This document shows, piece by piece, positions 5,740 through 24,824 of a DNA stretch of 64,000 nt. Numbering within the stretch: the stretch's first letter is position 1; each line of letters starts with the position of its first letter. Origin of the DNA: Luteibacter sp. UNCMF331Sha3.1. Lineage in GTDB: Bacteria > Pseudomonadota > Gammaproteobacteria > Xanthomonadales > Rhodanobacteraceae. The notes under the pieces are model-generated. The model was not told the DNA's origin. It did no database searches and saw only the letters and a program-made list of their open reading frames with translations. The DNA is taken from NCBI RefSeq assembly GCF_900109915.1, contig NZ_FOBU01000001.1, forward strand, positions 1,697,004 to 1,761,003, in the 5' to 3' direction. The translations under genes were made by a program, and so were the position numbers.

Positions 5740-5756
5740 GCCGCATCACCGCTCTG

Positions 5757-5824: not shown

Positions 5825-5899
5825 CAATGCTGCGATTCATGTCGCGTAAGAGCTTCCTTGCCGATAATCCCCGGCACCATCAAGGCAAGGAGCCCCACC

Positions 5900-6196: not shown

Positions 6197-6200
6197 GCCC

Positions 6201-6536
6201 TCAGGGTGACGTGATGTGGGTCTTGTCGATGACCTTTCCGTCGGCATCGATATCGACGACCCAGCTTTCCTCGACGATGGAAACCGGGTTGCGGAACCAC
6301 AGCCGCTCGACACATGGCGGATGGCACGCCTCCCATGGCGGAGAGGCGTCGCCAGCGGTGCGCCGCTCGTGAGCAATCCCCATCTTTCCGAGGACGACCG
6401 TCTTCGTATCGCCGGTCGCGACCTTTGCGAATCCGTGGTCGCCCCGCAGGACGAACCAGCTACATGACACCGGCCAGGCAACCAGCAAGCCCACTATCGT
6501 CCAGCAGACGGCCCTCGCGGCGCGCGCTCCGTTCAT
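6201..6536 (-). CDS. Small membrane-anchored protein, possibly BamE/SmpA-like fold
   Basis: An 111-residue protein with start ATG 6536, supported by GAGGAG seven bases upstream; an upstream ATG at 6587 would overlap the promoter of the opposite gene. One N-terminal hydrophobic segment (AVCWTIVGLLVAWPVSCSW) is followed by a soluble domain. The pattern 'GDTKTVVLGKMG ... ESWVVDIDADGKV' recalls the BamE/SmpA pattern 'G.s..eV...lG.P ... W.Y...dGkV', although it carries an extra Cys-Pro-rich loop (ACHPPC). Function not known; the fold suggestion is inference. Divergent from the gamma-carbonic-anhydrase-like gene. Confidence 0.6.
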   Translation of the reverse strand: MNGARAARAVCWTIVGLLVAWPVSCSWFVLRGDHGFAKVATGDTKTVVLGKMGIAHERRTAGDASPPWEACHPPCVERLWFRNPVSIVEESWVVDIDADGKVIDKTHITSP

Positions 6537-6594
6537 CGCCTTGCTCCTCGTCGTCGCCCGGAAAAACGCGGCTCGCGGCCGCGTCATGCCTATC

Positions 6595-6600
6595 TATAAT
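6595..6600 (+). promoter_or_regulatory. -10 box predicting a leaderless mRNA for the 6607 gene
   Basis: A perfect TATAAT hexamer lies six bases before the ATG at 6607. Initiation about 7 nt downstream of the hexamer would start the RNA at or next to the A of the start codon. No clear -35 hexamer and no Shine-Dalgarno sequence are seen, which fits a leaderless transcript. Confidence 0.65.
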
Positions 6601-6606
6601 GCCGGG

Positions 6607-7137
6607 ATGGCAAATATCCGACCGTTCAAAGGCATCCTTCCGCGTCTCGGCGCGCGTGTTTACGTCGACGCCGCGGCGACGGTGATCGGCGACGTCTTGC
6701 TGGGCGACGACGCGTCGATCTGGCCGGGTGCGGTCGCGCGGGGCGATGTTCATCACATCCGCATCGGCGCCCGCAGCAACCTCCAGGACGGCGCGATCAT
6801 CCACGTGACCCACGATGGCCCCTACACGCCGGGCGGGTTCCCGACGATCATCGGCGACGACGTGACCATCGGGCATGGGGCGGTGATTCACGCGTGCACC
6901 ATCGAGGACGGTTGCCTGATCGGCATGCACGCCACCGTGCTGGACGGCGTGGTGGTGAAGAAGAACGGCTTCGTCGGCGCCGGTGCGTTGATCCCGCCCG
7001 GCAAGGTCGTGGGCGAACGGGAGCTCTGGCTGGGCAACCCTGCAAAGATGGTCCGGGTGCTCTCGGACGCCCAGGTCGAGCAGCTCTACTATTCCGCCGC
7101 GAATTACGTGCGGCTCAAGGACGATTATCTCGCCTGA
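6607..7137 (+). CDS. Gamma-carbonic-anhydrase-like hexapeptide protein (YrdA/PaaY type)
   Basis: A 176-residue left-handed beta-helix protein built of hexapeptide repeats (for example VIGDVLLGDDASI, TIIGDDVTIGHGA, CTIEDGCLIGMHA). The metal-binding histidines of the gamma class are visible in HVTH, IGHGAVIHA and MHA. Family members form cytoplasmic trimers; many bind zinc or iron, some hydrate carbon dioxide, and others act on thioesters. The start MANIRPF at 6607 is preferred over 6541, because the TATAAT box lies between the two. It precedes the oligopeptidase A gene by about 80 bases. Confidence 0.9.
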   Translation: MANIRPFKGILPRLGARVYVDAAATVIGDVLLGDDASIWPGAVARGDVHHIRIGARSNLQDGAIIHVTHDGPYTPGGFPTIIGDDVTIGHGAVIHACTIEDGCLIGMHATVLDGVVVKKNGFVGAGALIPPGKVVGERELWLGNPAKMVRVLSDAQVEQLYYSAANYVRLKDDYLA

Positions 7138-7219
7138 CCCCACGGGGCGCGCCATGACACACCGCCGCTTGATTTGGGCCGGGAAGAACACCACGCTGAT
7201 CGCCTGACAGGAGATCCCG

Positions 7220-9265: not shown

Positions 9266-9273
9266 TCGGACCG

Positions 9274-9303
9274 GCCGCGCGGCGCCGGTCGCCGCGCGGC
9301 TTT
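9274..9303 (+). terminator. Intrinsic terminator after prlC
   Basis: GCCGCGCGGC at 9274-9283 and again at 9291-9300 form a 10-bp perfect stem with a 7-base loop, followed by TTTCC. It begins nine bases after the prlC stop codon. Confidence 0.75.
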
Positions 9304-9307
9304 CCAT

Positions 9308-9313
9308 TACAAT
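9308..9313 (+). promoter_or_regulatory. -10 box predicting a leaderless xthA mRNA
   Basis: TACAAT at 9308-9313 lies six bases before the xthA ATG and directly after the prlC terminator. The spacing equals that at 6595-6607 and predicts transcription starting at the initiation codon. No Shine-Dalgarno is present. Confidence 0.6.
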
Positions 9314-9319
9314 GGCGCG

Positions 9320-10087
9320 ATGAAGATCGCGTCGTGGAACGTCAACTCCCTCAAGGTCCGCCTCCCCCATCTCCAGCAATGGCTGGCGGAGGCGCAGCCC
9401 GACATCGTCGCGTTGCAGGAGACCAAGCTCACCGACGACAAGTTTCCCGTCGACGAGATCGCGGCCATGGGTTACCAGGTCGCCTACTCGGGGCAGAAGA
9501 CCTATAACGGCGTCGCCATCCTGGCCAGGGACGAGCTGCGCGACGTGGTGACGGACATCGAAGGCCTCGACGACCCGCAGCGGCGCATCCTCGCCGCCAC
9601 GGTCGGCGACATCCGCGTCGTGAACCTCTACGTGGTGAACGGCAAGGCCCTGGGCGACGAAAAGTACACCTACAAGCTGCACTGGCTGGCCAGGGTGCGC
9701 GACTTTCTCGAAGGCGAGCGCGCGCGTCACGAGAAGCTGGTGGTGTTGGGCGACTTCAACATCTGCCGCGACGACCGCGACGTGTACGACCCGGTCGCGT
9801 GGGGCGAGGACATCTTCTGCTCGCCGCCGGAGCGCGCCGCGCTGCAGGCGCTGCTCGATGTCGGTCTTCATGACAGTTTCCGACTTTTCAGCGAAGATGC
9901 CGGCCTTTTCAGCTGGTGGGACTATCGCCAGGCCGCCTTCCGCCGCAACATGGGGCTGCGGATCGACCTCATCTTGATCAGCGATGCGCTGAAATCCGTC
10001 GCGACGTCGTCGATCATCGACAAGGCGCCGCGCAAATGGGAACAGCCGTCCGACCACGCGCCTGTCGCGCTGGAGTTGAAGCTTTGA
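9320..10087 (+). CDS. xthA: Exodeoxyribonuclease III (AP endonuclease, EEP superfamily)
   Basis: A 255-residue enzyme with all family motifs: KIASWNVNSL at the N-terminus, the metal-binding Glu in ALQETKL, the catalytic GDFNI in the middle, and the C-terminal DLILIS and SDHAPV motifs. It cuts DNA at abasic sites and removes 3' blocking groups in base-excision repair. Its stop codon overlaps the start of the next gene. The promoter appears to lie immediately before the ATG. Confidence 0.96.
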   Translation: MKIASWNVNSLKVRLPHLQQWLAEAQPDIVALQETKLTDDKFPVDEIAAMGYQVAYSGQKTYNGVAILARDELRDVVTDIEGLDDPQRRILAATVGDIRVVNLYVVNGKALGDEKYTYKLHWLARVRDFLEGERARHEKLVVLGDFNICRDDRDVYDPVAWGEDIFCSPPERAALQALLDVGLHDSFRLFSEDAGLFSWWDYRQAAFRRNMGLRIDLILISDALKSVATSSIIDKAPRKWEQPSDHAPVALELKL

Positions 10088-10755
10088 ACACACCGAAGTC
10101 CGAATGGCCGAGTTCGCTGGACGACAGCGAGCTCGAAGCACTCGATACCTTCCTCCGTACCCACGGCGGCGAGGGCAGCCTCATGCTGGACGGCGTGCAC
10201 GGCCTGCTGTCGGCGATCGCGATCGGGCCGCTCGAGGTCAAGCCCGAAGAATGGCTGCACGAAGTGCTGCACGACGCGTTCGACGACGAGGACGAAGGCA
10301 ACCGTGTGCTGGCGCTGCTCGCCAAGCTCAACGATTCGATCACGGCCGAGCTCGGCGTCGACGCCTACGAGCCGATCCTGGGCGAAGTGGACACCGAAGA
10401 AGGGCCGCTGCTGTCCGCCGCCGGCTGGTGCGAAGGCTTCAGTCGCGGCATCGACATGCGCGCGGGCCTGTGGGAGAACCGCCTCGCCGAGGATCCGTCA
10501 CTGATGCAGCTGCTCGGACCCATCATGGCCCTGGCGGTGGACGAAGGCGTCCTGCAGGCCGATGCGGAGTTCGAGAAGCTCACGGACGAGGAGTACGACG
10601 AATGCCTCGGCCAGCTTCCCGACGTGCTCAACGCCGTCGGCGCCTACTGGACCGACAATCCACCGAGCGAGGACGAGCTGAAGGCGCTGGCCCAGCCCCG
10701 CGTCGAAGGCGAAGACGGCCCCCCGCGGCACCGATCCGGCCATTGGGTGCACTGA
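10084..10755 (+). CDS. UPF0149 (YgfB/YecA-type) protein, translationally coupled to xthA
   Basis: A 223-residue acidic protein. The best start is TTG at 10084 in a TTGA overlap with the xthA stop, giving (M)NTPKSEWPSSL; the upstream in-frame ATG lies deep inside xthA. The sequence follows the UPF0149 pattern (LDTFLRTHGGEGSLMLDGVHGLLSAIAIGP, then W-CEGF-RGI, then a glutamate-rich C-terminus). It lacks the SEC-A type Cys-rich zinc motif found at the end of YecA. Function in the family is poorly defined. Confidence 0.85.
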   Translation: MNTPKSEWPSSLDDSELEALDTFLRTHGGEGSLMLDGVHGLLSAIAIGPLEVKPEEWLHEVLHDAFDDEDEGNRVLALLAKLNDSITAELGVDAYEPILGEVDTEEGPLLSAAGWCEGFSRGIDMRAGLWENRLAEDPSLMQLLGPIMALAVDEGVLQADAEFEKLTDEEYDECLGQLPDVLNAVGAYWTDNPPSEDELKALAQPRVEGEDGPPRHRSGHWVH

Positions 10756-10763
10756 TCGCCCTG

Positions 10764-10788
10764 GTGGGAGCCGCCATGGCGGCTCCTG
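10764..10788. repeat. Short palindrome, class C
   Basis: GAGCCGCCATGGCGGCTC at 10768-10785 is a perfect 18-bp palindrome preceded by GGTGG, so it has the usual GTGGGAGCC head. It starts 12 bases after the UPF0149 stop codon and may end its transcript. Confidence 0.7.
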
Positions 10789-10884
10789 CAAAGCGAGCCC
10801 TTCGCGGAACGCATCGTTCACCCGCCGCCTCTACTCCGTCGCACCCGAACGCGTCATCTTGTGGGGCAACTTCAGGAGGCAGCC

Positions 10885-11718
10885 ATGACCACCCAACGTC
10901 ACATCGTCCGCCGCGTCACCGGCATGGATACCGCCGACGGTGCCGGCGTCAAGCTGAAGCGCGTGATCGGCCAGCCGGCGCTGGACATGCTCGACCCGTT
11001 CCTGCTGCTGGACGAATTTCGTTCCGATCAGGCGGGCGATTACATCGAAGGTTTCCCCGAGCACCCGCATCGCGGCTTCGAGACCGTGACCTACATGCTC
11101 GCCGGCCGCATGCGCCACGGCGACAACCACGGCAACACCGGTGACCTCGGTCCCGGCAGCGTGCAGTGGATGACCGCGGGACGCGGCATCCTGCATTCGG
11201 AGATGCCGCAGCAGGAAGAAGGCCTGATGTGGGGCTTCCAGCTATGGGTCAACCTGCCCGCCGCGGACAAGATGATCGAACCGCGCTATCAGGACATTCC
11301 GCCGGGAGACATTCCGGTGGTGCACCCGTCCGAGGGTGTCACGGTGCGTGTCGTGGCGGGCGAGCTGGCCGGTGCGAAAGGTCCCGTCGCGGGTATCGCC
11401 ACGCAGCCGGTGTATCTGGATGTCTCGCTGGCGCCCGGTGCCCGGCTCGATCTCGCACTGCCCGAGGAGCACAGCGCGTTCGCCTACGTCTTCGAAGGCG
11501 AGTCGGCCGTCGTCGGTGGTGAAACGCTGTCGAGAAGCGAGCTCGGCGTGCTGTCGAAGGGATCGACGGTCGCGCTGTCCGCGACGGGGCACACGCGCCT
11601 CCTCGTCGTGGCGGGCCGTCCGCTGAAGGAGCCGGTGGCTCGCTACGGCCCGTTCGTGATGAATACGCCCGCGCAGATCCACGAGGCGATCGCGGATTTT
11701 CGAGCGGGCAAGTTCTGA
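10885..11718 (+). CDS. Pirin-family protein
   Basis: A 277-residue bicupin. The N-terminal cupin has the pirin metal-ligand pattern: HPHRGFETVTY, then HGDNHG and GRGILHSEMP. The C-terminal pirin domain (about 180-270) follows. Bacterial pirins bind iron or other metals; some, like E. coli YhhW, act as quercetinases, and others affect regulators or pyruvate metabolism. The start MTTQRH at 10885 is chosen for its AGGAGG Shine-Dalgarno; an in-frame GTG at 10861 is less likely. It stands alone between two palindromic repeats. Confidence 0.92.
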   Translation: MTTQRHIVRRVTGMDTADGAGVKLKRVIGQPALDMLDPFLLLDEFRSDQAGDYIEGFPEHPHRGFETVTYMLAGRMRHGDNHGNTGDLGPGSVQWMTAGRGILHSEMPQQEEGLMWGFQLWVNLPAADKMIEPRYQDIPPGDIPVVHPSEGVTVRVVAGELAGAKGPVAGIATQPVYLDVSLAPGARLDLALPEEHSAFAYVFEGESAVVGGETLSRSELGVLSKGSTVALSATGHTRLLVVAGRPLKEPVARYGPFVMNTPAQIHEAIADFRAGKF

Positions 11719-13125: not shown

Positions 13126-15855
13126 CTACAGGGGCGCCTTGACCATCTTCTTTCCGACCGGCACCTTCACCTCGCCCTTCGGCAGGGATAGCACCAGGCC
13201 GCCCGGGGGGGTGACCGGCTGCGTGATCGTCAGCTCAGCCTGGCCGTTTCGCGCTTTCAGCGTGTAACCGAACCGGCCGTACGGCGTACGAAGGTCCCTT
13301 ACCGAGATGCCGTCGCCTTCCAGCCATGCGGGCTGCACGCCGGCGGCCAGCACCAATGCGCCATCGGCGGCGCGGTCGTAGGCGAACAGGTCCAGCGCGG
13401 AGCGCACGTAGTCCGATGCGATCCAGGCATGGGGCATGTCGCCGACGAAGCGGGGCTCGCGGGGATCGCGTCCGACGACTTCCGCCCACTGGTTCCACGC
13501 GGCCGGCCGGCGGTCAGCGAAGAAGAACGCGATCAACGGATCGAGGCGGTCACGCCAGCCGAGGCGGACGAAGCTGGCGATCGTGCGCAGCTCGTAAGGG
13601 GTGTAATCCTTCCACGCCGTCTTGCCGTCGCGACGCGCGATGAAGCCCTGCCAGTATTTCTCGAACGTGGCATCGACCAGCGCCTTCGGAAGGCGCGACT
13701 GCTCGTCGCCCGGAGAGAGGGCGATCGTGGTCGACGTCGCATCGAAGTCGCCGAGCTCGGCCGATCCGGGGATGAAGTCGATGCCCTTCGCTTTCACCGC
13801 AGCGTCGATGGACGCGTGCACATCGTGGCGGAACGTGTCGCGCGATACCGCGAACGCCTTCGCGTCGACGTCGTTCCCCAGCGCCGTCGCCAGATCGACC
13901 GCGTCGTCGTATCCCTTGAGCGCCCAGAAGTCGTCCCAGTACGAATGCATCGGCTTCGCCGAATAGCCCTCATGGCTGATCGACGCGGGCATCAGGCCGT
14001 AGAGCGCGCGATCGGGTCCCTCGCGCCGTGACGGCTGACTCTCGCTGGCGCGCAGCGTATCCATGTACGCGATGGCCTTGCGCACGTGCGGATACAGCGC
14101 AGTGAGCGTCGTCCGGTCGTGCGTGTATCGCCAGAGCTCGGCCACGCTGAAGATCAGCTCGCCGTGGCTGTCGTTTTCCGGTACCGGATCGGACCCTCGC
14201 GCGTCGACGCAGCACGGTACCTTGCCGTGCGAGAACTGATGCGGTGCGTACCAGCGGATGAATTCGCGTGCCACATCGTCGTGCCCCGTGCGCAGCAGGC
14301 CCTCCAGCATCATCGCGCCGTCGCGGACCCACGTTCGCGAATACGAGCGCGTACCCGGCTGCAGGGCCGGTCCGTCGCGCGACATCAGAATTTGCGCGAC
14401 GCCGCTCTTCATCGTATCGACGATGGGTTGCGCCACCGACGGCACCGTCACCGTCACGCGATCGAGCTTTCCGCGCCACAGCGCGGCGACGGCGTCGGCG
14501 CGACTCGCGAGCCAGCGCCCGGCATCCGCCGGCATCGCCACGTCGTCCTTGTCGTTCACCGGCACCACGAGGCCCAGGTCGACGTGACCGTGCGCCGGGA
14601 CGTGCAGGTCGTAGAGCAACGCGCCCTGGGCGAAGCCCGTCGTATCCCGCAGCGCGGTCGCCACTGGCCGCTCGCCGGCCTCGAGTCGCTCGCTCAGGGT
14701 CTTCGGCTCGTTCGTGCTGGCGACGAACGACGTCGTGGGCTGCAAGGGGACCACCCGGCGCGTACCGTTGACCGTGAGCACGCGCCCGTTCCACGACAGA
14801 TCGTCGATGCGGCTCGTGCCACCCGGTGCGTTGAGGAACTGCGTGGGCGGATTGACCTGGAACGGACGCGTCGCCAGCGCGAGGGTGACGTCGCGCGCGG
14901 CATCGCCATCGTTGGCGACCCGATACGACACCACCAGCTGCGACGCGCCCGCGTCGCCCTGTGCGAACGCCGTGGTCACGAGCGATAGTGCGCCGGACTG
15001 CCAGCGTACCGACGGCATCGGCAGATAGCGATCGCGCAACGACTGGGTCGACGTCACATCGGCCCAGGTCAGCAGCTTGCCCTGCGAGATCAGGAAAGGC
15101 TCGATCGAGAAACCACCGCGCGCCACTTCCACCGCGCCGTCTTCCGAGATCAGCGCGGAATCGCGGCTGCCGCCGTCGACGCCGACGATCGTCCAGTACG
15201 ATTGCTCGCCGGAGAAACCGCGCGGGTACAGGCCACGACGCACCTGCTTCGCGCGAGCTTCGAAGATCGCGTTCGGCGTGGGCGCCGGCGCGGGCACGGC
15301 TTCCGGCTTCGCCGCGTCGAGGTGCAGGTTGTCGAAACATACCTCCCCCTTGTTCGGTTGCGACGCGCCGGCCCCGGCTTCCTTGTAGATCACGAACTCG
15401 ACCTCGCGCGTGTGCCGTAGCGTGCGATCCTTCGACGGCCCCCAGGCGAACTCCACCTGCCGGCTGCTGGCGTCGATCGTCTGCCACGCCTCGGTCGGCG
15501 CGAACGACGGCTTCTGGAACCACCACACGTTGTCGCCGGTGTCGTCGATGAACTTGAGCTGCAGCGTGTTCGCCGGCATGTGGCCGCGCACGTCGAAGCG
15601 CAGCGCGAATCCCCGCGGGAAATCGATCGGCAGCGTCTTGCGTATCGACGCCGCCCCCGATACGCCGTTGAAGTCGTAAGCGAGACAGACCGCCTGGCCC
15701 TGCCTGCCGGGCACGCTCCGCAGGCTCGCGGATACGTCGTCGGTATGCGTCGCGGTCCAGCCCGTGGCGGTATCGAACGTGTCGAGATCGCCGGCCACCG
15801 CGCTGCCGCTGAAGAAAGCGAGAACCAGCACCGCCCGTACGACGTTCATTGCCAT
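13126..15855 (-). CDS. Secreted six-hairpin-type glycoside hydrolase with N-terminal carbohydrate-binding-like domain
   Basis: A 909-residue protein with signal peptide (MAMNVVRAVLVLAFFSGSAVA). Residues about 20-170 resemble a beta-sandwich binding module (FDVRGHMPANTLQLKF, VCFDNLHLD). A long second region (about 190-450) looks like the super-sandwich domain preceding many (alpha/alpha)6 enzymes. The C-terminal half (about 460-850) has the helical-barrel hallmarks: TRSYSRTWVRDGAMMLEGLL, VPCCVDARGSDPVPENDSHGE and a late NQWAEVVG, with several acidic candidates for catalysis. I cannot assign a GH number. ATG 15855 has GAAGGG six bases upstream and starts two bases after the permease stop, so the gene ends the operon. 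Substrate inferred from neighbours: a beta-glucan-type oligosaccharide. Confidence 0.75.
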   Translation of the reverse strand: MAMNVVRAVLVLAFFSGSAVAGDLDTFDTATGWTATHTDDVSASLRSVPGRQGQAVCLAYDFNGVSGAASIRKTLPIDFPRGFALRFDVRGHMPANTLQLKFIDDTGDNVWWFQKPSFAPTEAWQTIDASSRQVEFAWGPSKDRTLRHTREVEFVIYKEAGAGASQPNKGEVCFDNLHLDAAKPEAVPAPAPTPNAIFEARAKQVRRGLYPRGFSGEQSYWTIVGVDGGSRDSALISEDGAVEVARGGFSIEPFLISQGKLLTWADVTSTQSLRDRYLPMPSVRWQSGALSLVTTAFAQGDAGASQLVVSYRVANDGDAARDVTLALATRPFQVNPPTQFLNAPGGTSRIDDLSWNGRVLTVNGTRRVVPLQPTTSFVASTNEPKTLSERLEAGERPVATALRDTTGFAQGALLYDLHVPAHGHVDLGLVVPVNDKDDVAMPADAGRWLASRADAVAALWRGKLDRVTVTVPSVAQPIVDTMKSGVAQILMSRDGPALQPGTRSYSRTWVRDGAMMLEGLLRTGHDDVAREFIRWYAPHQFSHGKVPCCVDARGSDPVPENDSHGELIFSVAELWRYTHDRTTLTALYPHVRKAIAYMDTLRASESQPSRREGPDRALYGLMPASISHEGYSAKPMHSYWDDFWALKGYDDAVDLATALGNDVDAKAFAVSRDTFRHDVHASIDAAVKAKGIDFIPGSAELGDFDATSTTIALSPGDEQSRLPKALVDATFEKYWQGFIARRDGKTAWKDYTPYELRTIASFVRLGWRDRLDPLIAFFFADRRPAAWNQWAEVVGRDPREPRFVGDMPHAWIASDYVRSALDLFAYDRAADGALVLAAGVQPAWLEGDGISVRDLRTPYGRFGYTLKARNGQAELTITQPVTPPGGLVLSLPKGEVKVPVGKKMVKAPL

Positions 15856-15857
15856 GC

Positions 15858-16679
15858 TTAGCCCTTCACGCTGCCGAGCAGCAGTCCTTCGAGGTAGTAG
15901 CGCTGCAGCGCGAGGAACAATACGAGCACGGGGAGGATCGTGACCACGGAGCCCGCCATCATCAGCTCGCTGTCCTGCACGTGCTCGCGCGACAACGAGG
16001 CCAGTGCGATGGGGAGCGTGTAATGCTCCTGCCCGGTCAGCGCGATCAGCGGCCACATGAAGTCGTTCCACGCGGCGAGGAAAGTGAAGATCGCGAGCGT
16101 CACCATGATCGGCTTCAGCAACGGCATCACGATGGTGGCGAAGATGCGGAACTCGCCCGCGCCGTCGATGCGCGCCGCCTCCATCAGGTCGTCGGGGATG
16201 CCGCTGGCATACTGCCGCACCAGGAAGATGCCGAAGATGGTCGCCAGCGCCGGCACGATCACCGCGCCATACGTGTTCACCAGCCCCATGTATTTCAGCA
16301 GAAGGAACAGCGGCAGCATCGCGACCTGCGCGGGAATCACCAGCGCACCGAGCAGCACCTGGAATAACCGCTGGCGCCCCTTGAACTCGAGCTTCGCGAA
16401 CGCGTAGCCGGCCATCAGGTTGAAGGCGAGCGACACCAGCGTGATGCACGTCGAGATCAGCAGGCTGTTGAAGAGGTAGCGGCCCATGCCCGCGTTCATG
16501 AACAGCTGGCGGTAATTGTCCAGCGTGGCGTTCTTCGGAAGCACGGGTGGCGGCAATGCGCTCGCCTGCCCCTGCGGCATGAACGACACCGACACCATGT
16601 ACAGCAGCGGCGCGATCGCGATGACGGCGGCGCCGATCAGCAGGCCGTTGACGAGGGCTTTCGCAAGGCGCGGACTCAT
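15858..16679 (-). CDS. Carbohydrate ABC transporter permease, MalG/UgpE type
   Basis: A 273-residue inner-membrane protein with six predicted helices. The cytoplasmic EAA loop that docks on the ATPase is present as EAARIDGAGEFRIF-x-x-IVMPLLKP. It is the second permease of a CUT1-type importer. Its ATG at 16679 overlaps the stop of the preceding permease (ATGA), so the two are translationally coupled, and the glycosidase gene follows three bases after its stop. No ATP-binding subunit is encoded nearby. Confidence 0.93.
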   Translation of the reverse strand: MSPRLAKALVNGLLIGAAVIAIAPLLYMVSVSFMPQGQASALPPPVLPKNATLDNYRQLFMNAGMGRYLFNSLLISTCITLVSLAFNLMAGYAFAKLEFKGRQRLFQVLLGALVIPAQVAMLPLFLLLKYMGLVNTYGAVIVPALATIFGIFLVRQYASGIPDDLMEAARIDGAGEFRIFATIVMPLLKPIMVTLAIFTFLAAWNDFMWPLIALTGQEHYTLPIALASLSREHVQDSELMMAGSVVTILPVLVLFLALQRYYLEGLLLGSVKG

Positions 16680-17554
16680 GCCGGTTCTCCCCGCTTCGAC
16701 AGACGAAGCATCGCGGCGGTCACCACGAACATGATGACGAACAGGATGAAGGCCACGGCGGACGCCGAGCCGAGGTTCCACCACTTGAAGCCTTCTTCGT
16801 ACATCAGATACAGCACCGAGGTCGTGCTCTGCAACGGTCCGCCTTCCGTCATCACGTACGGCTCGGCGAACAGCTGGAAATAGCCCGACACGGTCAGGAT
16901 GCTGACCATCACCATCGTGGGCTTGAGCATCGGCAGCGTGATGTGGCGGAACTGCGCCATCGCGGATGCGCCGTCGATGCGCGCGGCCTCGTAGAGATCG
17001 CCCGGTATCGCCTGCAGGCCGGCCATGAAGATGATCATGTTGTAGCCGAAGTTCTTCCATATCGCGAACAGGATGATCGTCGGCATCGCCCAGTGTGGAT
17101 CGCCGAGCCAGTCGACCGTCGGGATGCCGACCGAATCGAACACGTAGTTGACCAGGCCGTACTTGGTATTGAATAGGTAACGCCAGATCACCGCAACCGC
17201 GACCACCGTGGTCACCACCGGAGCGAACAGCGCGGTCCGGAAGAACGGCTTGAACCGGGCAAGCGGCGAGTTCAGCAGCATCGCCGCGCCGAGCGAGGCC
17301 ATCAGCGACAACGGCACGCCCACGACGACGAAATACAGCGTGTGGCCCAGCGCCGACCAGAACAGCGGCCGCTGCAACAGCGCCCAGTAATTCTGCAGGG
17401 CCACGAACCGCAGGTTGCGGATGTCCGCGAGCGCATAGAGATCGTAGTCGGTGACGGACAGGACCAGCGCCGCTACCACCGGCAGCAGGAAGAACAGCCC
17501 GAGAACGATCAGCGCGGGCGTGATGAAGAGCCAGGCGGCGCGGGAGGTGGTCAT
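16676..17554 (-). CDS. Carbohydrate ABC transporter permease, MalF/UgpA type
   Basis: A 292-residue protein with six membrane helices and the EAA motif EAARIDGASAMAQFRHITLPML. It pairs with the 15858-16679 gene to form the membrane channel of a CUT1-family sugar importer. The ATG at 17554 overlaps the stop of the binding-protein gene by four bases (ATGA), and its own stop overlaps the next start in the same way. Confidence 0.93.
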   Translation of the reverse strand: MTTSRAAWLFITPALIVLGLFFLLPVVAALVLSVTDYDLYALADIRNLRFVALQNYWALLQRPLFWSALGHTLYFVVVGVPLSLMASLGAAMLLNSPLARFKPFFRTALFAPVVTTVVAVAVIWRYLFNTKYGLVNYVFDSVGIPTVDWLGDPHWAMPTIILFAIWKNFGYNMIIFMAGLQAIPGDLYEAARIDGASAMAQFRHITLPMLKPTMVMVSILTVSGYFQLFAEPYVMTEGGPLQSTTSVLYLMYEEGFKWWNLGSASAVAFILFVIMFVVTAAMLRLSKRGEPA

Positions 17555-18843
17555 GGCGATGCCTTGTGGCCGTGGTCGAGCATCCAGCGCCGCTTCTCGA
17601 GCAGGCGATTGGCGCGACGGTCGATTTCATCCGCGGCCTGGTCGATCGTGAGATCGCCGTGTGCCGCCTGCGCAGCCACCAGCTGCATCTCGGTGACGAT
17701 GCGTTCCCACTCGGCGACCGGTGGCGTCGGCTTCACGCGTTCGAGCTGGTCGCGGAACGCCGCGGCCTTGTCGTCGTTCTTCAGCGCGGGCACGTCCCAT
17801 GACGAGCGGCGTGGCGGCATGTCGCCGAGGATCTGGTAGAAGCGCTCCTGGATCGCGGGCCGCGACAGGAACTCGATCAGCGCCCACGCATCGTCCTTGT
17901 GCTTCGACCGCCGGAAGATCACGAGGCTCGAGCCGCCGGCGTTCGACGCACCCGGGCCATCGGGGCCGGGCAGGGGCGTCGTGGCCCAGTCGCCCTGCTG
18001 TTCCGGCGGCAACCGCTTGCGGAATTCGCCGATGTTCCAGGGTCCGGAAAGATAGAAAGCGAAGAAGCCCTGCCCGAACGCGGCCCAGGGATTGCCGATG
18101 CCGACGTTGGTCATCATCGGCGCCTGTTGGTCCTTGAACAGCGACACGTAGTACGCCAGCGCCTTCTTGAACCCGGGGCTGCGGAAGTTGCCGTAACGAC
18201 CGTCGTCGCGGAGCAGCGGATCGTCCTGCTGCAACGCGAGCGCGAGCAACTGCTCGAACTCGTTGGTAGGCAACAGCACGCCATACGTCTTTCCCGGCGG
18301 CGTGGACAGCTTCGCCATCATGTCGCGCCACTCGGCCCAGTCGCGCGGCGGGTGGTCGTAGCCGATCTTCGCGAGCAGGTCCTTGCGATAGAAAAGCAGA
18401 CGCGTGTCCACATACCAGGGCACGCCGTACAGCTTGCCGTCGATCACGTTGGTCGACCAGATCGCGGGGAAGTAATCGGCGGGATCGACGACCTTCGAGC
18501 CGGCGACGCGCGCGTCGAGTAGCTCGAGCGCATCGAGCGCGACCATTTCCGGCACCCACGTATTGCCGAGCTGGGTGATGTCGGGCGTGGAATCGCCGGC
18601 ATACGCGGTGAGCAGCTTCTGGTGCGCGGCCGTCAACGGCAACTGCTGCACCTCGACGTGCAGCCCGGGATGCTCGCGCTCGAACTCGGGCAGCAGCTTC
18701 GCCACCGCCTCGCCCTCGCGACCGATCGTCCAGAGCTGCAGCGTCCGGCTGCCCTCGTCGTGTTTCGCGCAGCCCGCTACGCCGGCACCGGCGAGAGCCA
18801 GCACCAGCCCGACGCGAAGCGTGCGAGCGAAACGCTTCACCAC
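17551..18843 (-). CDS. Extracellular sugar-binding lipoprotein of the ABC importer
   Basis: A 430-residue family 1 solute-binding protein. The signal ends in the lipobox VAGC (Cys25), which tethers it to the inner membrane's periplasmic face. The mature part shows the MalE/UgpB-like pattern: LQLWTIGREGEAVAKLLPEF, TPDITQLGNTWVPEM, and YGVPWYVDTRLLFYRKDL. The start is a GTG: 18843 has GAGG ten bases upstream, and 18840 is the alternative. Both overlap the end of the glycoamylase-like gene. It is followed by the two permeases with ATGA overlap. Confidence 0.9.
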   Translation of the reverse strand: MVKRFARTLRVGLVLALAGAGVAGCAKHDEGSRTLQLWTIGREGEAVAKLLPEFEREHPGLHVEVQQLPLTAAHQKLLTAYAGDSTPDITQLGNTWVPEMVALDALELLDARVAGSKVVDPADYFPAIWSTNVIDGKLYGVPWYVDTRLLFYRKDLLAKIGYDHPPRDWAEWRDMMAKLSTPPGKTYGVLLPTNEFEQLLALALQQDDPLLRDDGRYGNFRSPGFKKALAYYVSLFKDQQAPMMTNVGIGNPWAAFGQGFFAFYLSGPWNIGEFRKRLPPEQQGDWATTPLPGPDGPGASNAGGSSLVIFRRSKHKDDAWALIEFLSRPAIQERFYQILGDMPPRRSSWDVPALKNDDKAAAFRDQLERVKPTPPVAEWERIVTEMQLVAAQAAHGDLTIDQAADEIDRRANRLLEKRRWMLDHGHKASP

Positions 18844-20318
18844 AGGTTGGCGGCCTCGTCGGCGTCGAGCCAGCCGCCGCTGAAGCCGGCGCGCTGCAGA
18901 CCCTTGCGGATGTACGGATTCTTCTTCATCACGTTCCAGACGAACTCGCTGCGGTAGTTCTCGATCATCAGTACGATCGGGCCCTGGTCGATGCCCAGAT
19001 GCACGGTATCGGCCCAGCCGAAGCCGGGCACCAGGCGGCCCGTACGCAGTTCGGTCTTGGTGTCGAAGGTCAGGTTGAACGCATCGACGAAGCCGTACTT
19101 CGTATAGATGTATTGACCGTACTTCTTCTTCATTTCTTCCAGCGCGGGAATCACGATTTCCGGCGCGAAGGCGATGGAGCCGCCCGCCGCGGTCGGAACG
19201 ATGGTGCCGTCGTCCGAAACGTAGTCGAGACCGGCGCCACGGGCGGTGTAACCCTGGTAAGTCCGCTCTTTGTCGCCCTGCTTGATGATCAGGCCTCCGG
19301 GGCCGTTGCTGGCCGTCAGGCCCCACACGTTCTTGCCATAGCCCTTCCAGCCGCCCGGATTCGCCACGGCATAGGCCTGCTGCGAATAGGTGGCACGACG
19401 GCTGTTCTCGAAATAGTCGAGATCGTGCGACTTGCTCCACGCGTCGCGGATGCCGCGAAAATCGATGAACGTGTGGCTGTACTGGTGCCCGAACAGCGGC
19501 GCGAAGTTCAGGAACGTCTGCCCGTGGAACTCGCCCCAGGTCCTGTCGTACGTCTTCGTCCAGGCCTGCCAGGCATCGTCGCCCACCGGATGCGTCGGCG
19601 AGCCGAGCGCCAGGATGTAGACGAGCATGCCTTCGTTGTAGCCCTGCCAGTCGTGCGGGATCTGCTTGCCGCCCGGCGTCCACCCCATGTTGATGAGCGG
19701 CGCACGGGTCTGTGCCCACGTCCACTCCACGCGGCGGTAGATCTGGTCGGCGATGTCGCGGATTTCCTTTTCCTTCGCCGTGTCGCGGTCGTAGTAGCTC
19801 TGCGCGAACAGGATGCCGCCCAGCAGCAGCGTGGTGTCGACGGTGGAAACCTCCACCCAACGATCGTGCCGGGCGCCGGTTTCCATGTTGAGGAAGTGGT
19901 AGAAGAAGCCCTTGTAGCCCGTGGCGCCGTCTTCCGCGTCGCTCTGCGGCGCGTCGCGGAAGAAGCGGAGCGTGGCGAGCGTGCGGTCGATCGCCTGGTC
20001 GCGCGTGATGTAGCCGCGCTCCACGCCCACGCCATACGCCGTGAGCCCGAAGCCCACCGATGCGATCGACGCGAACGACTGCGTCGGGTAGTGGTCGGGC
20101 ACCAGGCCGTTGACCGGATTGGCGCTGTCCCAGAACCACTGGAACGTTCGCTTCTCGAGGTCGGCGATCATCGGCGGCACCGCATGCACGTCGCGCATCG
20201 CGGAGGCCGCGGCGTGCCTGGGCTTCGCCGTTTCGATCTGCGCCATGGCCATCGGCGCGGCAGTGGCGAGCATCACGCCAAGGGCGAGCGAGAGGCGTTT
20301 CAGGGTTTCGGCTTGCAT
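18837..20318 (-). CDS. Secreted glycoamylase-domain hydrolase, GH144-like (probable endo-beta-1,2-glucanase type)
   Basis: A 493-residue protein with signal peptide ending AMAQ (about residue 27). The rest is one (alpha/alpha)6 domain of the glycoamylase family (PF10091): RTFQWFWDSANPVNGL near the N-terminus, GHQYSHTFIDFRGIRD and DYFENSRRATYSQQAYA in the middle, and GIDQGPIVLMIENYRSEFVW near the end. Characterised relatives in GH144 cleave linear beta-1,2-glucan, and related domains occur in cyclic beta-1,2-glucan synthases; extending this activity here is inference. ATG 20318 has AGGAT upstream, and a palindromic operator lies 17 bases before the start. It leads a five-gene operon joined by overlapping or nearly touching genes. 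Confidence 0.85.
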   Translation of the reverse strand: MQAETLKRLSLALGVMLATAAPMAMAQIETAKPRHAAASAMRDVHAVPPMIADLEKRTFQWFWDSANPVNGLVPDHYPTQSFASIASVGFGLTAYGVGVERGYITRDQAIDRTLATLRFFRDAPQSDAEDGATGYKGFFYHFLNMETGARHDRWVEVSTVDTTLLLGGILFAQSYYDRDTAKEKEIRDIADQIYRRVEWTWAQTRAPLINMGWTPGGKQIPHDWQGYNEGMLVYILALGSPTHPVGDDAWQAWTKTYDRTWGEFHGQTFLNFAPLFGHQYSHTFIDFRGIRDAWSKSHDLDYFENSRRATYSQQAYAVANPGGWKGYGKNVWGLTASNGPGGLIIKQGDKERTYQGYTARGAGLDYVSDDGTIVPTAAGGSIAFAPEIVIPALEEMKKKYGQYIYTKYGFVDAFNLTFDTKTELRTGRLVPGFGWADTVHLGIDQGPIVLMIENYRSEFVWNVMKKNPYIRKGLQRAGFSGGWLDADEAANLW

Positions 20319-20334
20319 CGGATGGATCCTGTTG

Positions 20335-20348
20335 CGTAAACGTTTACG
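20335..20348. promoter_or_regulatory. LacI-type operator before the glycoamylase-ABC operon
   Basis: CGTAAACGTTTACG is a perfect 14-bp palindrome with the central CG pair of LacI/GalR-family operators. It lies 17 bases before the start codon at 20318, within the expected promoter-proximal region. The matching site at 24811-24824, before the LacI-family gene, makes that regulator the obvious ligand. Confidence 0.85.
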
Positions 20349-20390
20349 TGACGGTAGCAAATAAAAGCCTCGAGGGGCTCTTCTCTCCAA

Positions 20391-20424
20391 GAAAAAAGAA
20401 ACGCCCGCGGGGAGATACGCGGGC
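20391..20424 (-). terminator. Intrinsic terminator of the TonB receptor gene
   Basis: On the minus strand GCCCGCG (20418-20424) pairs with CGCGGGC (20403-20409), followed by GTTTCTTTTTTC: a strong stem plus U-tract. A second hairpin (20434-20459, GCGCATCCGG with its complement) lies between it and the stop codon at 20468. The receptor transcript therefore ends before the glycoamylase operon promoter. Confidence 0.9.
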
Positions 20425-20467
20425 GCGCAAAAGGACGCATCCGGTTGCCCGGATGCGCCAGGGTGGA

Positions 20468-23400
20468 TTAGAACTTCAGACCCACAGTGAAGCGGGCGGT
20501 GCGCGGCAGATAGGTGATGTTGCCCTTCTTGTTCACTGCCACCGGGCGGCTGTTGAGGATGCCGTCCGAACCCCAGTTCACGAGGTAATCCGAGTCCGCG
20601 TAGTTCTTCCAGTTGAAGACGTTCAGCAGGTCGAAGCGCGCGTAGATCTTCACGTCGTCGCTGATCACGAAGTCTTTGGTCAGCTGCATGTCGACGTCGC
20701 GGTAGCCCCAGATGTCGCCACCGACGAGGAACTTCGCACCGCTCGGCGTGGCGGCCATCGGCATGCAGTTCGATCCGTTCGGCTCGATCTGGCCGTAGCA
20801 GGCGGCCGCGTTCTTCGGCAGCGGCGTGGCGAGGGTGAGCTTGATCGAGCCGGAGATGCCCCACGGCAGATCGACCGCACCGGTACCGACGAAGCGATGC
20901 TTGGCCACGGCGTTCGACGTGATAAACGGGTAGTCGCCGATCGTCGGCTCATCGAACGAGTAGTGCTCGTTGATGTCGCGATTCTGCTTCGAGTGCGAGA
21001 ACGTGTACGACAGGCTCGTGCTCCAGCCGGACTCGCGGGTATAGGGCTTCTGCGCCGACAGCAGGACCTGGGTCGTGCGGGTCTGGATGCCGTTGTCGCC
21101 GAGGATCAAGCCGCCCACGTTCGGGATCGGATAATCCCAAGGCTGCGAGCCGTTCTGGAAGAACGCGCCGTTGGGGTAGCGGTTGCCGAGCGTGAATGCG
21201 AAGCCGTCCTTGCTGAGCACACGCGTCACCGTGGCGTCGGTCAGCCATTCGCCGATCGTATTCGACATGCCCAGGCTGAACTGGTCGCTGTACGGCGCCT
21301 TAAGCTTGTTGTTGAGCATGTCGACTTCCTGACCGGCATTGCCGCCGACGAGGTAGTTTTGCAGCACGTTCTGGCCGTTGAGGAACTCCGGATTCCAGGG
21401 CACGCAGGTGGCGGACGTCGTGTCGCATGGATGCGTCGGGATGTTGAAGCGGAGCGTCGTCTGCGGCAGCGCCTGCTTGGTGACTTCGGTCTGCAAGTAG
21501 TCGTACAGGTTACGGTCGTATGCACGACCCGCGCCGCCGTGGATCACGTGCGCTTCGTCCGCGAACAGGTCGTACGAGAAGCCGAGACGCGGCTGCCACT
21601 GACCCTTGAACGAATGACGGTTGTGACCGTCGCTGACGTAGTCGTTGAGATTGACGCCACCGGCGGCGAGCGCGTCGCCGTAGGTGGATCCCGGTGCCGC
21701 ACCGGCGTACGGATTCGGCGAATTGATCGCATCGAGCACGCGCTGCGACGTCACGAAGTTGTTGTACGACGGATTGACTTCGTAGTCCCAGCGAACGCCG
21801 AGGTTCAGCGTCAGGTGGTCGTTAACCGACCAGTCGTCCTGCGCGAAGATGCCGTACTGGCGCGCCGTCGTTTCGGCGACGCCGCTCGTGCCGGGAAGAG
21901 CCGACGCGTAGAACACCTGCCACGGCTGCGACGAGACGCCCGTCGGGTTCACGTCGTAGAAGAACTGCGGGCTCTGCGCGGCAGCATCGGCCGCCTTCAG
22001 TTCGATCGACTTGAACTTGTAGCCAAACTTCACGACGTGGTCGCCATGCCATTCGAGATCGTTGAAAGTGAATTGATCCGAGATGCTCGGACCTTCCTGG
22101 CTCTTGGTCTGCGTCGCGCGCGGATCGGCCGAACCCGTCGTGATGATCGTCGGGTTGTTCGTGTCCGGCTGCCAGCTGTAGGTGTAGCCATTGCCGGGCT
22201 GGAGCGGGAACGCGTTGATGTATGCGTTCTCGAACGTGAGGATCAGTTCGTTGTACCAGCTGTCGCCGCTATGCGCCCACTTGAAGGTGCCGCGCGTGTC
22301 GTGGTTCTCGTTGTTGACGCCGGCCGACGGCGCGGTGCCGGTGCCGATGCCGGAGATCTGCGTTTCGCGACGCACCTGCGTGCTGATCTCGATGCGATCG
22401 CGGTCGGTGAGTTCCCAGTCGATCTTGCCGAAGTACAGCTTCTCATCGAAGTTGAGGTTCGCGGAACCGAGTTCCGACTGCACGTTGGCGGGCAGGAGCG
22501 GCGTGACGTCGCCGGCGAAGTTGATGCTGTTCGGGACGACGGAGATCGGCGTGTCGAACTTCTTCTGCTCGAAGGCGATGAAGAAGTGCATCTTGTCCTT
22601 GATGATCGGGCCGCCCAGGGCGAAGCCGTATTCCTTGGACTCCGAGTCGACCTTGCGGCCGGTGCTCTCTTCGATCGGCGTGCGGTTGCGGAACGCGTCG
22701 TTGGTGTACGTGCCGAACACTTCGCCGTGGAATTCGTTCGTGCCCGACTTTGTCTCGGCCGTGATCGCCGCCGACGAGACCTGGTCGTACTCGGCCTTGT
22801 AGTTCGACGTGATGACCTTGTACTCGCCGATGGCGAGCTGCGGGAACGGATTGCCCTGGCTGTTGTTCTGGCCGGAGACGCCGCCTTCCTTCACGTAGCT
22901 CTTCTGGCTGACACCGTCAATGTAGACGTTCGTCGAGCTGTTGTTCTGCGCACCGCCGCGAAGCGACGTGTTTCCCTTCGCATCGACAGAGAAGACCATG
23001 CCCGGCACGGTGTCGGCGAACTCGAGGAAGTTACGCGAAGCTTGGGGAATCGTCGCGATCTGGTGGAGCGAGATCGTCTGGCCGACTTCCGGCGTCTTCA
23101 CTTCTTCGAGCGTGGTGGCCGCGACCGAGACGCCTTCCATCTGCGTCGCGTTGGCCGCATTGGCGGAAGGGCCCTGCGTGGCCGGCGCGGCGAGATTCAG
23201 CGTGCCGGTCGACGCGACCGTCAGCGTCACGTTCTGCTCGGTCCCCGGACCGGCATCGACGCGGTACGTCGCGGGCGGCAGGCCGTTGATGATATACGAG
23301 CCGTCCTGGCCGGCCGTGGCGTGACGCGTGAGACCCGTCTGCGAATTGAACACCGTGACGTTAGCGCCCGGCGTCGCCTTGCCGCGAAGCGTCGCGTTGG

Positions 23401-23500
23401 CGGACTGGGCCATGACCATGGTCGGCATGGCGACGGCGGCGACGGCCGTCGCGATGACGCTGACGAGCAATTTCTTCTTGAACTGCATCGAGGCTTTCAT
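20468..23500 (-). CDS. TonB-dependent outer-membrane receptor, Oar-like, probable oligosaccharide uptake
   Basis: A 1010-residue protein. A signal peptide (about 1-34, ending MVMA) is followed by a carboxypeptidase-regulatory-like beta-sandwich (about 35-105: ATLRGKATPGANVTVFN, DGSYIINGLPPATYRV). The plug domain comes next (about 130-260, with NVYIDGVSQK), then a 22-strand barrel ending in the aromatic RFTVGLKF. This architecture is common for xanthomonad receptors importing glycans or large substrates. ATG 23500 follows GAGGGGA. It lies between its LacI-family regulator and the hydrolase/ABC operon, which suggests it brings the released oligosaccharide into the periplasm. It has its own terminator. 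Confidence 0.92.
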   Translation of the reverse strand: MKASMQFKKKLLVSVIATAVAAVAMPTMVMAQSANATLRGKATPGANVTVFNSQTGLTRHATAGQDGSYIINGLPPATYRVDAGPGTEQNVTLTVASTGTLNLAAPATQGPSANAANATQMEGVSVAATTLEEVKTPEVGQTISLHQIATIPQASRNFLEFADTVPGMVFSVDAKGNTSLRGGAQNNSSTNVYIDGVSQKSYVKEGGVSGQNNSQGNPFPQLAIGEYKVITSNYKAEYDQVSSAAITAETKSGTNEFHGEVFGTYTNDAFRNRTPIEESTGRKVDSESKEYGFALGGPIIKDKMHFFIAFEQKKFDTPISVVPNSINFAGDVTPLLPANVQSELGSANLNFDEKLYFGKIDWELTDRDRIEISTQVRRETQISGIGTGTAPSAGVNNENHDTRGTFKWAHSGDSWYNELILTFENAYINAFPLQPGNGYTYSWQPDTNNPTIITTGSADPRATQTKSQEGPSISDQFTFNDLEWHGDHVVKFGYKFKSIELKAADAAAQSPQFFYDVNPTGVSSQPWQVFYASALPGTSGVAETTARQYGIFAQDDWSVNDHLTLNLGVRWDYEVNPSYNNFVTSQRVLDAINSPNPYAGAAPGSTYGDALAAGGVNLNDYVSDGHNRHSFKGQWQPRLGFSYDLFADEAHVIHGGAGRAYDRNLYDYLQTEVTKQALPQTTLRFNIPTHPCDTTSATCVPWNPEFLNGQNVLQNYLVGGNAGQEVDMLNNKLKAPYSDQFSLGMSNTIGEWLTDATVTRVLSKDGFAFTLGNRYPNGAFFQNGSQPWDYPIPNVGGLILGDNGIQTRTTQVLLSAQKPYTRESGWSTSLSYTFSHSKQNRDINEHYSFDEPTIGDYPFITSNAVAKHRFVGTGAVDLPWGISGSIKLTLATPLPKNAAACYGQIEPNGSNCMPMAATPSGAKFLVGGDIWGYRDVDMQLTKDFVISDDVKIYARFDLLNVFNWKNYADSDYLVNWGSDGILNSRPVAVNKKGNITYLPRTARFTVGLKF

Positions 23501-23738
23501 TGTTCCCCTCTCCCAAGTGTTCTTCTGTGTTGTGTGATCCGATCCAGCGAACGAAACGTACGGTGGTCGACCTTCTTGTCGTTCTCGCGGTGGCTCGATG
23601 CCACTCTTGTCGAAGCGTGCTGCCCCGTATGTCTCGTCCCTCCGCGTTCGCGGATGGGATATGTCGAGCGAAGTCCTTCGAAAAGCGCCGTCCTGGGATT
23701 CCAGTCCGCGGCCCGGCAAGCCGCGTGTCCGACGGGTA

Positions 23739-24761
23739 TCAGGCCCGTCGTCGTACCGTGTCGCTGCCCCCGCAGGAGGCGCGGACGACGAGTTCGGTGC
23801 CGACGACGGCGCGCGGTTCCGGCGGCGCGTCGTCGGCGGCTTCGATCATGCGCACCAGGCGTTCGAGTGCGGCTTCGCCGAGCTCGGCGATGCGCACGCG
23901 GACGGTGCTGAGCGGCGGCGTGACGTAGCGCGCCATGGGAATGTCGTCGAAGCCGACCACGGCGATGTCCGCCGGCGTACGCACCTGCGCTTCGGAAAGC
24001 GCGGAGAGGCAGCCGATGGCCATCATGTCGTTGGCGGCGAAGATCGCGTCGGGGCGCGGCACCATCGACAGCGCCTGCTTGCCCGCGTGGTAGCCGGACT
24101 CTTCGGTGAAGTCGCCGGCGATCACGGTGGCTCGATCGGCAAGGCCTGCCGCCGCCATCGCTTCGCGATACCCGCGGCAACGCTCCTGCACGTCGTGGTT
24201 CACTTCCGGGCCACCGATGAACGCGATGCGCTTGCGGCCGAGCGACAGCAGGTGCTCGGTCATCGCGTACGCGCCGCCGAAGTCGTCGACGTCGAGTGCC
24301 GCGTGGCGTTCGGAGCGCACGTGGCTGTTGATCAGCACCGTGGGCAGCACGACAGGCAGGTTTTCGTCGAGGAACGCCTCGTCGGCGTGCGGCGACATCA
24401 CGAGCAGACCGTCCACGCGGCCCTGCATGGCCCGCAGCGCGATCGCCGCTTCGGTCGCATCGCCATGCGAACTGGATACCAGCAGATAGAGGCCGCGAGC
24501 GCGCGCCGCGAGGTCGATACCGCGGATCAGTTCCGAGAAGAATGCGCCGTGCAGGTCGGGAAGCAGTGCGCCGATGGTCTGCGTGCGGCGAGTGATGAGG
24601 CTGCGTGCGGCGTTGTGCGGCACGTAGCGCAGACGGGCGGCCACCTCGCGGATGCGCTTCTGCGTCTCGGCCGTTACCCCACTGTGCCCATTCAGCGCGC
24701 GCGACACGGAGGCCACCGATACGTTGGCCATCCTCGCGACGTCTTTGATCGTCACACTCAC
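23739..24761 (-). CDS. LacI/GalR-family transcriptional regulator of the sugar locus
   Basis: A 340-residue repressor. The N-terminal helix-turn-helix and hinge helix (IKDVARMANVSVASVSRALN, then RLRYVPHNAARSL, residues 3-57) precede a periplasmic-binding-protein-like ligand domain (about 60-335: IGALLPDLHGAFFSELIRGI, FAANDMMAIGCLSAL, VVGFDDIPMARYVTPPL). It should bind the CGTAAACGTTTACG palindrome before the glycoamylase operon and the similar site before its own gene, giving autoregulation; the inducer is probably the sugar taken up. About 240 bases separate its stop from the TonB receptor start. Confidence 0.93.
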   Translation of the reverse strand: MSVTIKDVARMANVSVASVSRALNGHSGVTAETQKRIREVAARLRYVPHNAARSLITRRTQTIGALLPDLHGAFFSELIRGIDLAARARGLYLLVSSSHGDATEAAIALRAMQGRVDGLLVMSPHADEAFLDENLPVVLPTVLINSHVRSERHAALDVDDFGGAYAMTEHLLSLGRKRIAFIGGPEVNHDVQERCRGYREAMAAAGLADRATVIAGDFTEESGYHAGKQALSMVPRPDAIFAANDMMAIGCLSALSEAQVRTPADIAVVGFDDIPMARYVTPPLSTVRVRIAELGEAALERLVRMIEAADDAPPEPRAVVGTELVVRASCGGSDTVRRRA

Positions 24762-24810
24762 CAGTTCACGCCCTTGTATGCGACCCCTCCCGGGTCTCGT
24801 CGGCGCGGAA

Positions 24811-24824
24811 CGTAAACGTTTTCA
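24811..24824. promoter_or_regulatory. LacI-type operator before the regulator gene
   Basis: CGTAAACGTTTTCA matches the perfect palindrome at 20335-20348 in 12 of 14 positions. It lies about 50 bases before the regulator's start codon, where a repressor could block its own transcription. Confidence 0.75.

Follow-up and report, generated by a model that had tools for sequence, protein, structure and literature searches.

Which glycan is used by the LacI-controlled locus at 13126-24761 (minus strand) of the stretch of Luteibacter sp. UNCMF331Sha3.1 DNA analysed here, and what does its largest enzyme contribute? The stretch, in the following called the window, comprises 64,000 nucleotides (C10:1697004-1761003) of a 4.1 Mb genome in 10 contigs. 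A sequence-only reading of this DNA had put forward beta-1,2-glucan utilisation as a candidate function, and this proposal is now supported by a GH144 enzyme near the characterised XcSGL, a binding protein resembling Lin1841, the conservation of the locus and its neighbour genes. With high confidence we infer a LacI-controlled beta-1,2-glucan utilisation locus. The part of the locus that remains to be explained is not GH144 but a large glycosidase, here called GHx.

Gene content and operon structure

The locus consists of the following features.

13126-15855, minus strand: GHx, large secreted glycosidase of unassigned family, predicted to comprise an N-terminal beta domain, a beta-supersandwich and an (alpha/alpha)6 barrel, with R511-D512, E629 and E792 as candidates for functional residues
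15858-16679, minus strand: ATP-binding cassette (ABC) permease, MalG/UgpE type (BPD_transp_1)
16676-17554, minus strand: ABC permease, MalF/UgpA type (BPD_transp_1)
17551-18843, minus strand: sugar-binding lipoprotein (SBP_bac_1); PDB relatives 3UOR (X. citri MalE), then Lin1841
18837-20318, minus strand: putative GH144 endo-beta-1,2-glucanase (PF10091), relative of XcSGL/XCC2207
20335-20348: perfect 14-bp palindrome, likely LacI operator, 16 bases before the GH144 start codon
20468-23500, minus strand: Oar-like outer-membrane receptor, barrel with CarboxypepD_reg start (the start at 23500 was chosen)
23739-24761, minus strand: LacI-family regulator (LacI and Peripla_BP_3)
24811-24824: second operator-like site with 2 mismatches, upstream of lacI

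All seven genes anticipated by the sequence-only reading were found at these minus-strand positions, with the expected families by Pfam. From GHx to GH144 the gaps are 2, -4, -4 and -7 bases, and since neighbouring genes are thus 2 bases apart or overlap, the five genes from GH144 to GHx are read as one operon. The earlier grouping of the GH144-like gene, the binding lipoprotein, two permeases and the large secreted glycosidase, with the Oar-like receptor adjoining, therefore stands. GH144 and Oar are separated by 149 bases, Oar and LacI by 238 bases. Signal-peptide-like starts on GH144 and GHx and a lipobox-like GVAGC start on the binding protein were read by eye.

GH144 enzyme, binding protein and transport genes

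In the hidden Markov model check proposed for the product of 18837-20318, this protein matched PF10091 with 277.6 bits (Pfam cut-off 27), and its nearest PDB relative was a GH144 enzyme. PF10091 is not specific to GH144 alone because it also matches the synthase of this genome. The best PDB match was 8XUL (XcSGL/XCC2207; E 2.2e-188, 630.6 bits, residues 51-492), and the next six PDB sequences followed at E 8.7e-62 to 1e-45, with 5GZK among them, whereas 8XUJ and 8XUK (GH192 and GH194) were not among these seven matches at E <=0.001, their presence in the searched set being unchecked. According to the available part of the XcSGL report (PMC12102758), XCC2207 is XcSGL and is placed in GH144, and 5GZK is CpSGL. 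There, XcSGL showed 3.85 U/mg on beta-1,2-glucan alditol and no detected activity on the other polymers in the table rows available, and the residues of the clan are E239, F286 and Y367 of XcSGL, with a candidate base at the position of CpSGL E142 (PMC12102758). In the window protein (P0005 numbering, five residues counted ahead of the start Met), E234, F281 and Y362 correspond to E239, F286 and Y367 at a constant offset of 5, and E234 lies opposite the E239Q position in 8XUL. D166 is aligned with chain residue 142 (E) of 5GZH, which we equate with E142 of CpSGL. E234 (general acid), F281, Y362 and D166 were invariant in 15/15 aligned GH144 proteins, namely the window protein and 14 picked from the 77 GH144-bearing loci described below. 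By sequence, the 18837-20318 protein is a close relative of a characterised GH144 endo-beta-1,2-glucanase with the general acid kept.

PDB matches of the binding protein were 3UOR (E 1.2e-158), Lin1841 (E 1.7e-67) and then a next match at 2.1e-37. As reported in the available parts of two papers, Lin1841 binds beta-1,2-glucooligosaccharides (PMC12369401, PMC8861115), and among proteins of known ligand it is the closest in sequence to the binding protein of the window. In the Xanthomonas euvesicatoria form of the locus (L079), the binding protein (6905-8176) and 3UOR are almost identical across 409 residues, which makes it very likely that 3UOR derives from the corresponding locus in X. citri; Lin1841 was again the next PDB match after 3UOR.

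For the Oar-like receptor no plug-domain match was found with Pfam. It shares the absence of a canonical plug with XCC2208, listed among such Xanthomonas receptors in the available part of a survey (PMC1790865) and regarded by its tag number as the receptor adjoining XCC2207. There is no ATPase gene in the locus; the best of 42 matches in this genome to the ATPase of a neighbour locus was C2:53630-54703, adjoining a frame that reads as glucokinase (no domain scan).

Conservation and neighbour genes

A search with a GHx alignment confirmed at least 582 places, and the best 80 of these are the named loci analysed here, spanning Luteibacter, Dyella, Rhodanobacter, Xanthomonas, Stenotrophomonas, Lysobacter and Duganella. 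Among these best 80 the nearest relatives are Luteibacter, with GHx identities of up to 82%. In a separate count, GHx or a paralogue occurred in 47/149 relatives, including all 22 other genomes of the genus. By tblastn, GHx was matched in 80 loci, the permeases and binding protein in 79, GH144 in 77, Oar in 71 and LacI in 68, where matches at a locus edge can be partial. Matched genes agree in order and strand in 80/80 loci, the five genes from GH144 to GHx are kept in 77/80, and all seven are present in 66. Two loci without GH144 (L059 and L094) are cut off by a contig end that falls at the binding-protein gene or within it.

A Croceibacterium plasmid carries an Oar-type receptor, GH144 (55% identical to the GH144 of the window) and GHx (49%, 712 aligned positions) together, near GH3. 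As this group keeps the GH144-GHx pair without ABC genes, the pair may be the core of the system. Around the GHx match in Xanthomonas sacchari R1, which consists of 4 unannotated pieces, the annotation gives LacI, a TonB receptor, a glucoamylase-family protein, ABC genes, edd, pgl, glk, zwf and ugpC. Clustering of open reading frames in the 80 loci, with one representative per neighbour cluster identified by Pfam, gave GH1 in 24, a MalK-type ATPase in 21, Edd in 13 and GH94 in 8. Both the conservation of the locus and these neighbours fit beta-1,2-glucan use.

A gene for a tryptophan-halogenase-like flavoprotein lies between Oar and GH144 in 12/80 loci by cluster (L038 11603-13147 and L035 11746-13266 by Pfam); the window has none.

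Candidate LacI operators

The palindrome CGTAAACGTTTACG occurs exactly at 20335-20348, and the copy at 24811-24824 differs by 2 mismatches, which bears out the closely matching 14-bp palindromes noticed earlier before the operon and the LacI gene. At up to 3 mismatches, 5 matches were found in the window against 1.00 expected, a number reached by 1/100 shuffles. A scan of the 80 loci (1,745,082 bases) that allowed a single mismatch to the 12-bp core detected 45 sites in 34 loci, whereas six scrambled palindromes gave 0, 1, 0, 0, 1 and 4 sites. As measured from the tblastn match rather than the start codon, 39/45 sites lie 350-450 bases or less upstream of LacI (21 loci), Oar (3) or GH144 (14), in 32 loci altogether; upstream sequence was present for the LacI match in 58 loci and for GH144 in 77. 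Because it recurs at the same places in other genomes, the palindrome is beyond chance, and from sequence it is likely the LacI operator. One further site in L068 lies at the junction of divergent GH1 and ATPase frames, and in the relatives G076 and G136 the interval separating the locus from a divergent GHx paralogue holds two sites (up to 3 mismatches to the 14-mer).

Weighing the substrate

Several observations count against beta-1,2-glucan utilisation. The 80 loci were selected via GHx and lean to close relatives, and no operator site at up to 1 mismatch was found in 46 of them, including Xanthomonas, Duganella and most Stenotrophomonas, so that the operator has changed or is a different one there. 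L106, a metagenome-assembled genome of the Caulobacteraceae, is a genuine exception in which GHx occurs without the other locus genes, next to GlnE and a protein for heavy-metal resistance. No match to the GH1 known from other loci was obtained in the window's genome, in a search without positive control. The rhamnosidase barrel model PF17389 exceeds its cut-off where GHx lies in G089 (28.0 bits) and G002 (27.2) and stays below it at other GHx places. Finally, 3UOR, the closest PDB relative of the binding protein, is named MalE and called a putative maltose/trehalose binder; in the available parts of later papers its ligand is given as unknown or the structure as apo.

The name of 3UOR, near-identical to the Xanthomonas-form binding protein, would suit an alpha-glucan locus (maltose, trehalose or dextran) in which MalE would be the binding protein and GHx would act as glucoamylase or glucodextranase, as would the GH15-like fold and profile of GHx described below. 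We consider this very improbable, since GH144 is present in 77/80 loci, XcSGL is active on beta-1,2-glucan with no activity detected for the further polymers in the rows available, and both binding proteins tested have Lin1841 as their nearest relative of known ligand. The name MalE for 3UOR may be wrong, and beta-1,2-glucooligosaccharides are suggested as ligand for this solved X. citri protein.

Proposed pathway and known systems

Gene content, the GH144 family by sequence, conserved order, recurring operators and the predicted GHx fold were obtained directly; the activities, transport direction and inducer named next are all inferred. For beta-1,2-glucan utilisation, the Oar-like receptor would carry the glucan across the outer membrane, and GH144 would cut it into short oligosaccharides in the periplasm or outside, with GHx removing what GH144 leaves. 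The lipoprotein and the two permeases, with an ABC ATPase encoded elsewhere, would import the oligosaccharides, which would become glucose and feed glucokinase and Entner-Doudoroff enzymes. LacI would be released from the palindromes by an oligosaccharide or a sugar derived from it.

XcSGL (XCC2207, 8XUL) of Xanthomonas campestris belongs to the same family as the window enzyme and has the same conserved residues, and gene order in the Xanthomonas members of the 80 loci matches that of the window; the available part of the XcSGL paper describes the enzyme, and the operon and GHx are not described in it. The SGL cluster of Ignavibacterium album (IALB_1177-1187) likewise has GH144 and an oligosaccharide-binding ABC protein, together with a GH94-like protein resembling the synthase C-terminus, and its authors suggested TonB-dependent uptake. 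It differs by a GH35 transglycosylase, and LacI, Oar and GHx are unmentioned in the available part of that description. Clusters of Listeria innocua (lin1839-1841) and Streptomyces griseus (SGR_2422-2427) share a Lin1841-type binding protein, ABC import and a beta-glucosidase, but have GH94 or GH193 in place of GH144, and neither an outer-membrane receptor nor GHx is named in the parts available. By these partly available sources, GH144 clusters with ABC import are already known. A locus of LacI, Oar, GH144, ABC genes and GHx, and GHx itself, were undescribed in the literature found, a search with most subscription journals, supplements and CAZy outside it and with sources available in part; a drawing of the operon may exist in other sources, and a family number may already have been given to GHx. 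What was an inferred operon becomes a recurring system for a glucan with roles in bacterial osmotic balance and infection, and attention is drawn to a type of glycosidase that has no assigned activity.

GHx, a glycosidase probably related to GH15

No Pfam model matched GHx above its cut-off and no NCBIfam model matched at all. The only Pfam model at E <=0.001 was PF06202 (GH133/amylo-alpha-1,6-glucosidase) with 19.7 bits, below its cut-off of 21; the rhamnosidase barrel PF17389 gave 13.7 bits (cut-off 24.5). Within a set of 39 GHx members (A3; the window GHx, P0001, and 38 picked for spread from the 80 loci), weak barrel matches at E <=0.1 were found for PF17389 in 33, PF06202 in 15 and GH95 in 10. 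PF00723 (GH15) was absent in the window GHx and matched 1/39 members, at E 0.099. The best phmmer match of GHx against the PDB had E 0.005 and fell on the N-terminal domain, and every match that a profile of the 39 members gave up to E 10 lay before the catalytic part. The catalytic part of GHx is therefore without PDB relative by sequence.

An AlphaFold2 model (pLDDT 90.8, pTM 0.90) predicts a supersandwich and a six-hairpin barrel. With Foldseek, dextran dextrinase (9JU0) came first (E 2.8e-19, TM-score 0.48), followed by GH94 enzymes and glucodextranase (1UG9). VIA-align placed the alpha-L-fucosidase 8ZBV first (Z 27.7, 558 aligned, root-mean-square deviation 4.3), with 9JU0 at Z 24.5 amid rows of GH65, GH78, GH94 and GH116; its 50 listed matches, at Z 22.0 to 27.7, include many six-hairpin families. 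As this fold is common to GH65, GH78, GH94, GH95 and GH116, as a fucosidase tops VIA-align and as the top TM-score in Foldseek is only 0.48, naming GHx by its closest fold was rejected.

Comparison of profiles for the catalytic part gave 95.1% for GH15 and 78.7% for GH94, against 12.5% for PF06202, 10.0% for GH95, 3.9% for GH78 and 0.1% for GH65; GH144 stood at 0.2% and six unrelated families at 0.1-0.5%. In another mode GH15 reached 96.6%, GH94 76.6% and PF06202 0.03%. Profiles were built from GH15 (9/20 loci), PF06202 (5/20), GH78 (20/20), GH65 (17/20), GH95 (20/20) and GH94 (8 sequences), and the ranking is rough because all are shallow (Neff 2.0-3.3). The profile matches to GH65, GH78, GH95 and amylo-alpha-1,6-glucosidase, at most 12.5%, were weaker than that to GH15. 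In the GH15 alignment, YSRTWVRDGAM of GHx lies on YRFCWLRDASF, and WAEVVGRDPREPRFVGDMPHAW lies on LAEEYDPQSRRALGNFPQAL with E792 on the E of LAE; in GH15, the family of 9JU0 and 1UG9, these stretches are the R-D motif that binds glucose and the region of the general base. The acid position of GHx was not clearly aligned with GH15, and E792 faces a gap in the GH94 alignment. R511, D512, E629, D641, E755, E792 and D806 were invariant in 47/47 GHx rows. GHx shares with GH15 (1UG9 and 9JU0) the fold, the R-D motif and a glutamate near the barrel end, but falls short of the Pfam GH15 model. From the model and the alignments, GHx is most likely a GH15-related glycosidase that recognises glucose and works with inversion; E792 is the candidate base and E629 the candidate acid.

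GH94 and GH116 structures among the fold matches would also allow GHx to be a beta-1,2-acting exo-enzyme on the GH94-like side of the superfamily, releasing glucose or sophorose, instead of an alpha-glucosidase. Another enzyme may be needed here, as the GH1 of neighbour type was not found in that search without positive control. We regard this as possible but doubtful: the GH15 profile scores higher, and E792 aligns with the glutamate of the GH15 LAE motif and faces a gap in GH94. Nor is GHx simply a substitute for GH1 or GH94, as Duganella loci, chosen for GHx, carry it beside both.

In 30/39 GHx members an F5/8-type-C (CBM32-like) domain lies between the N-terminal and catalytic domains (e.g. 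L042 9031-12123); the window GHx is without it.

Source of the glucan and a possible role of GHx

The sequence-only reading had pointed to the beta-1,2-linked osmoregulated glucans made by xanthomonads. A host making glucans of the OpgG/OpgD type is not borne out here, as PF04349 (OpgG/OpgD) had 0 matches in this genome with a positive E. coli control. Among the 149 genomes, PF04349 occurred in 13, GHx or a paralogue in 47 and both in 9 (Fisher p 0.004, shared ancestry ignored). Since 38/47 are without PF04349, an own alpha-cyclised glucan is not a general reason for having GHx. That the locus serves to recycle cyclic beta-1,2-glucan made by the cell itself, with no scavenging of foreign glucan, appears rather unlikely to us, because the synthase of this genome sits on another contig and because an outer-membrane receptor and LacI control would better fit an external substrate.

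The alpha-1,6-cyclised glucans of Xanthomonas, Ralstonia and Cereibacter contain one alpha-1,6 bond, according to the available parts of the reports (PMC11228985, PMC11842490), and the literature found, likewise available in part, names no enzyme for this bond in cyclised beta-1,2-glucans. As GH144, GH1 and GH94 handle the beta-1,2 bonds, we tentatively suggest that GHx might be the founding type of a GH15-related family acting on the single alpha-1,6 bond of such glucans, meaning those of Xanthomonas (degree of polymerisation, DP, 16) and Ralstonia (DP13). Speaking against this assignment, fold and motif leave the linkage unfixed, GH94 is the next-best profile, and the 38/47 genomes without OpgG/OpgD include the present one. 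GHx may instead serve the scavenging of glucans of other bacteria, or cut beta bonds. If GHx does cut the alpha-1,6 bond, it would offer both a pathway and a tool for a virulence glucan; the enzyme that forms this glucan was reported in 2024. The conserved GH144-GHx pair would then complete the breakdown pathway of the glucan by which Xanthomonas suppresses plant defence.

GHx-like genes outside the locus

On the Methylosinus plasmid L250, no GH144 is annotated in the stretch shown, and a GHx-like gene (3154-11127, 31% identity) lies near an annotated GH15 gene. The present genome has a GHx paralogue at about 1466-1469 kb of C10 (L034 6180-9653). No operator within 3 mismatches was found in its 16-kb stretch, nor a sugar-hydrolase domain in five scanned neighbours. 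This paralogue is about 35% identical to GHx and carries the F5/8-type-C domain.

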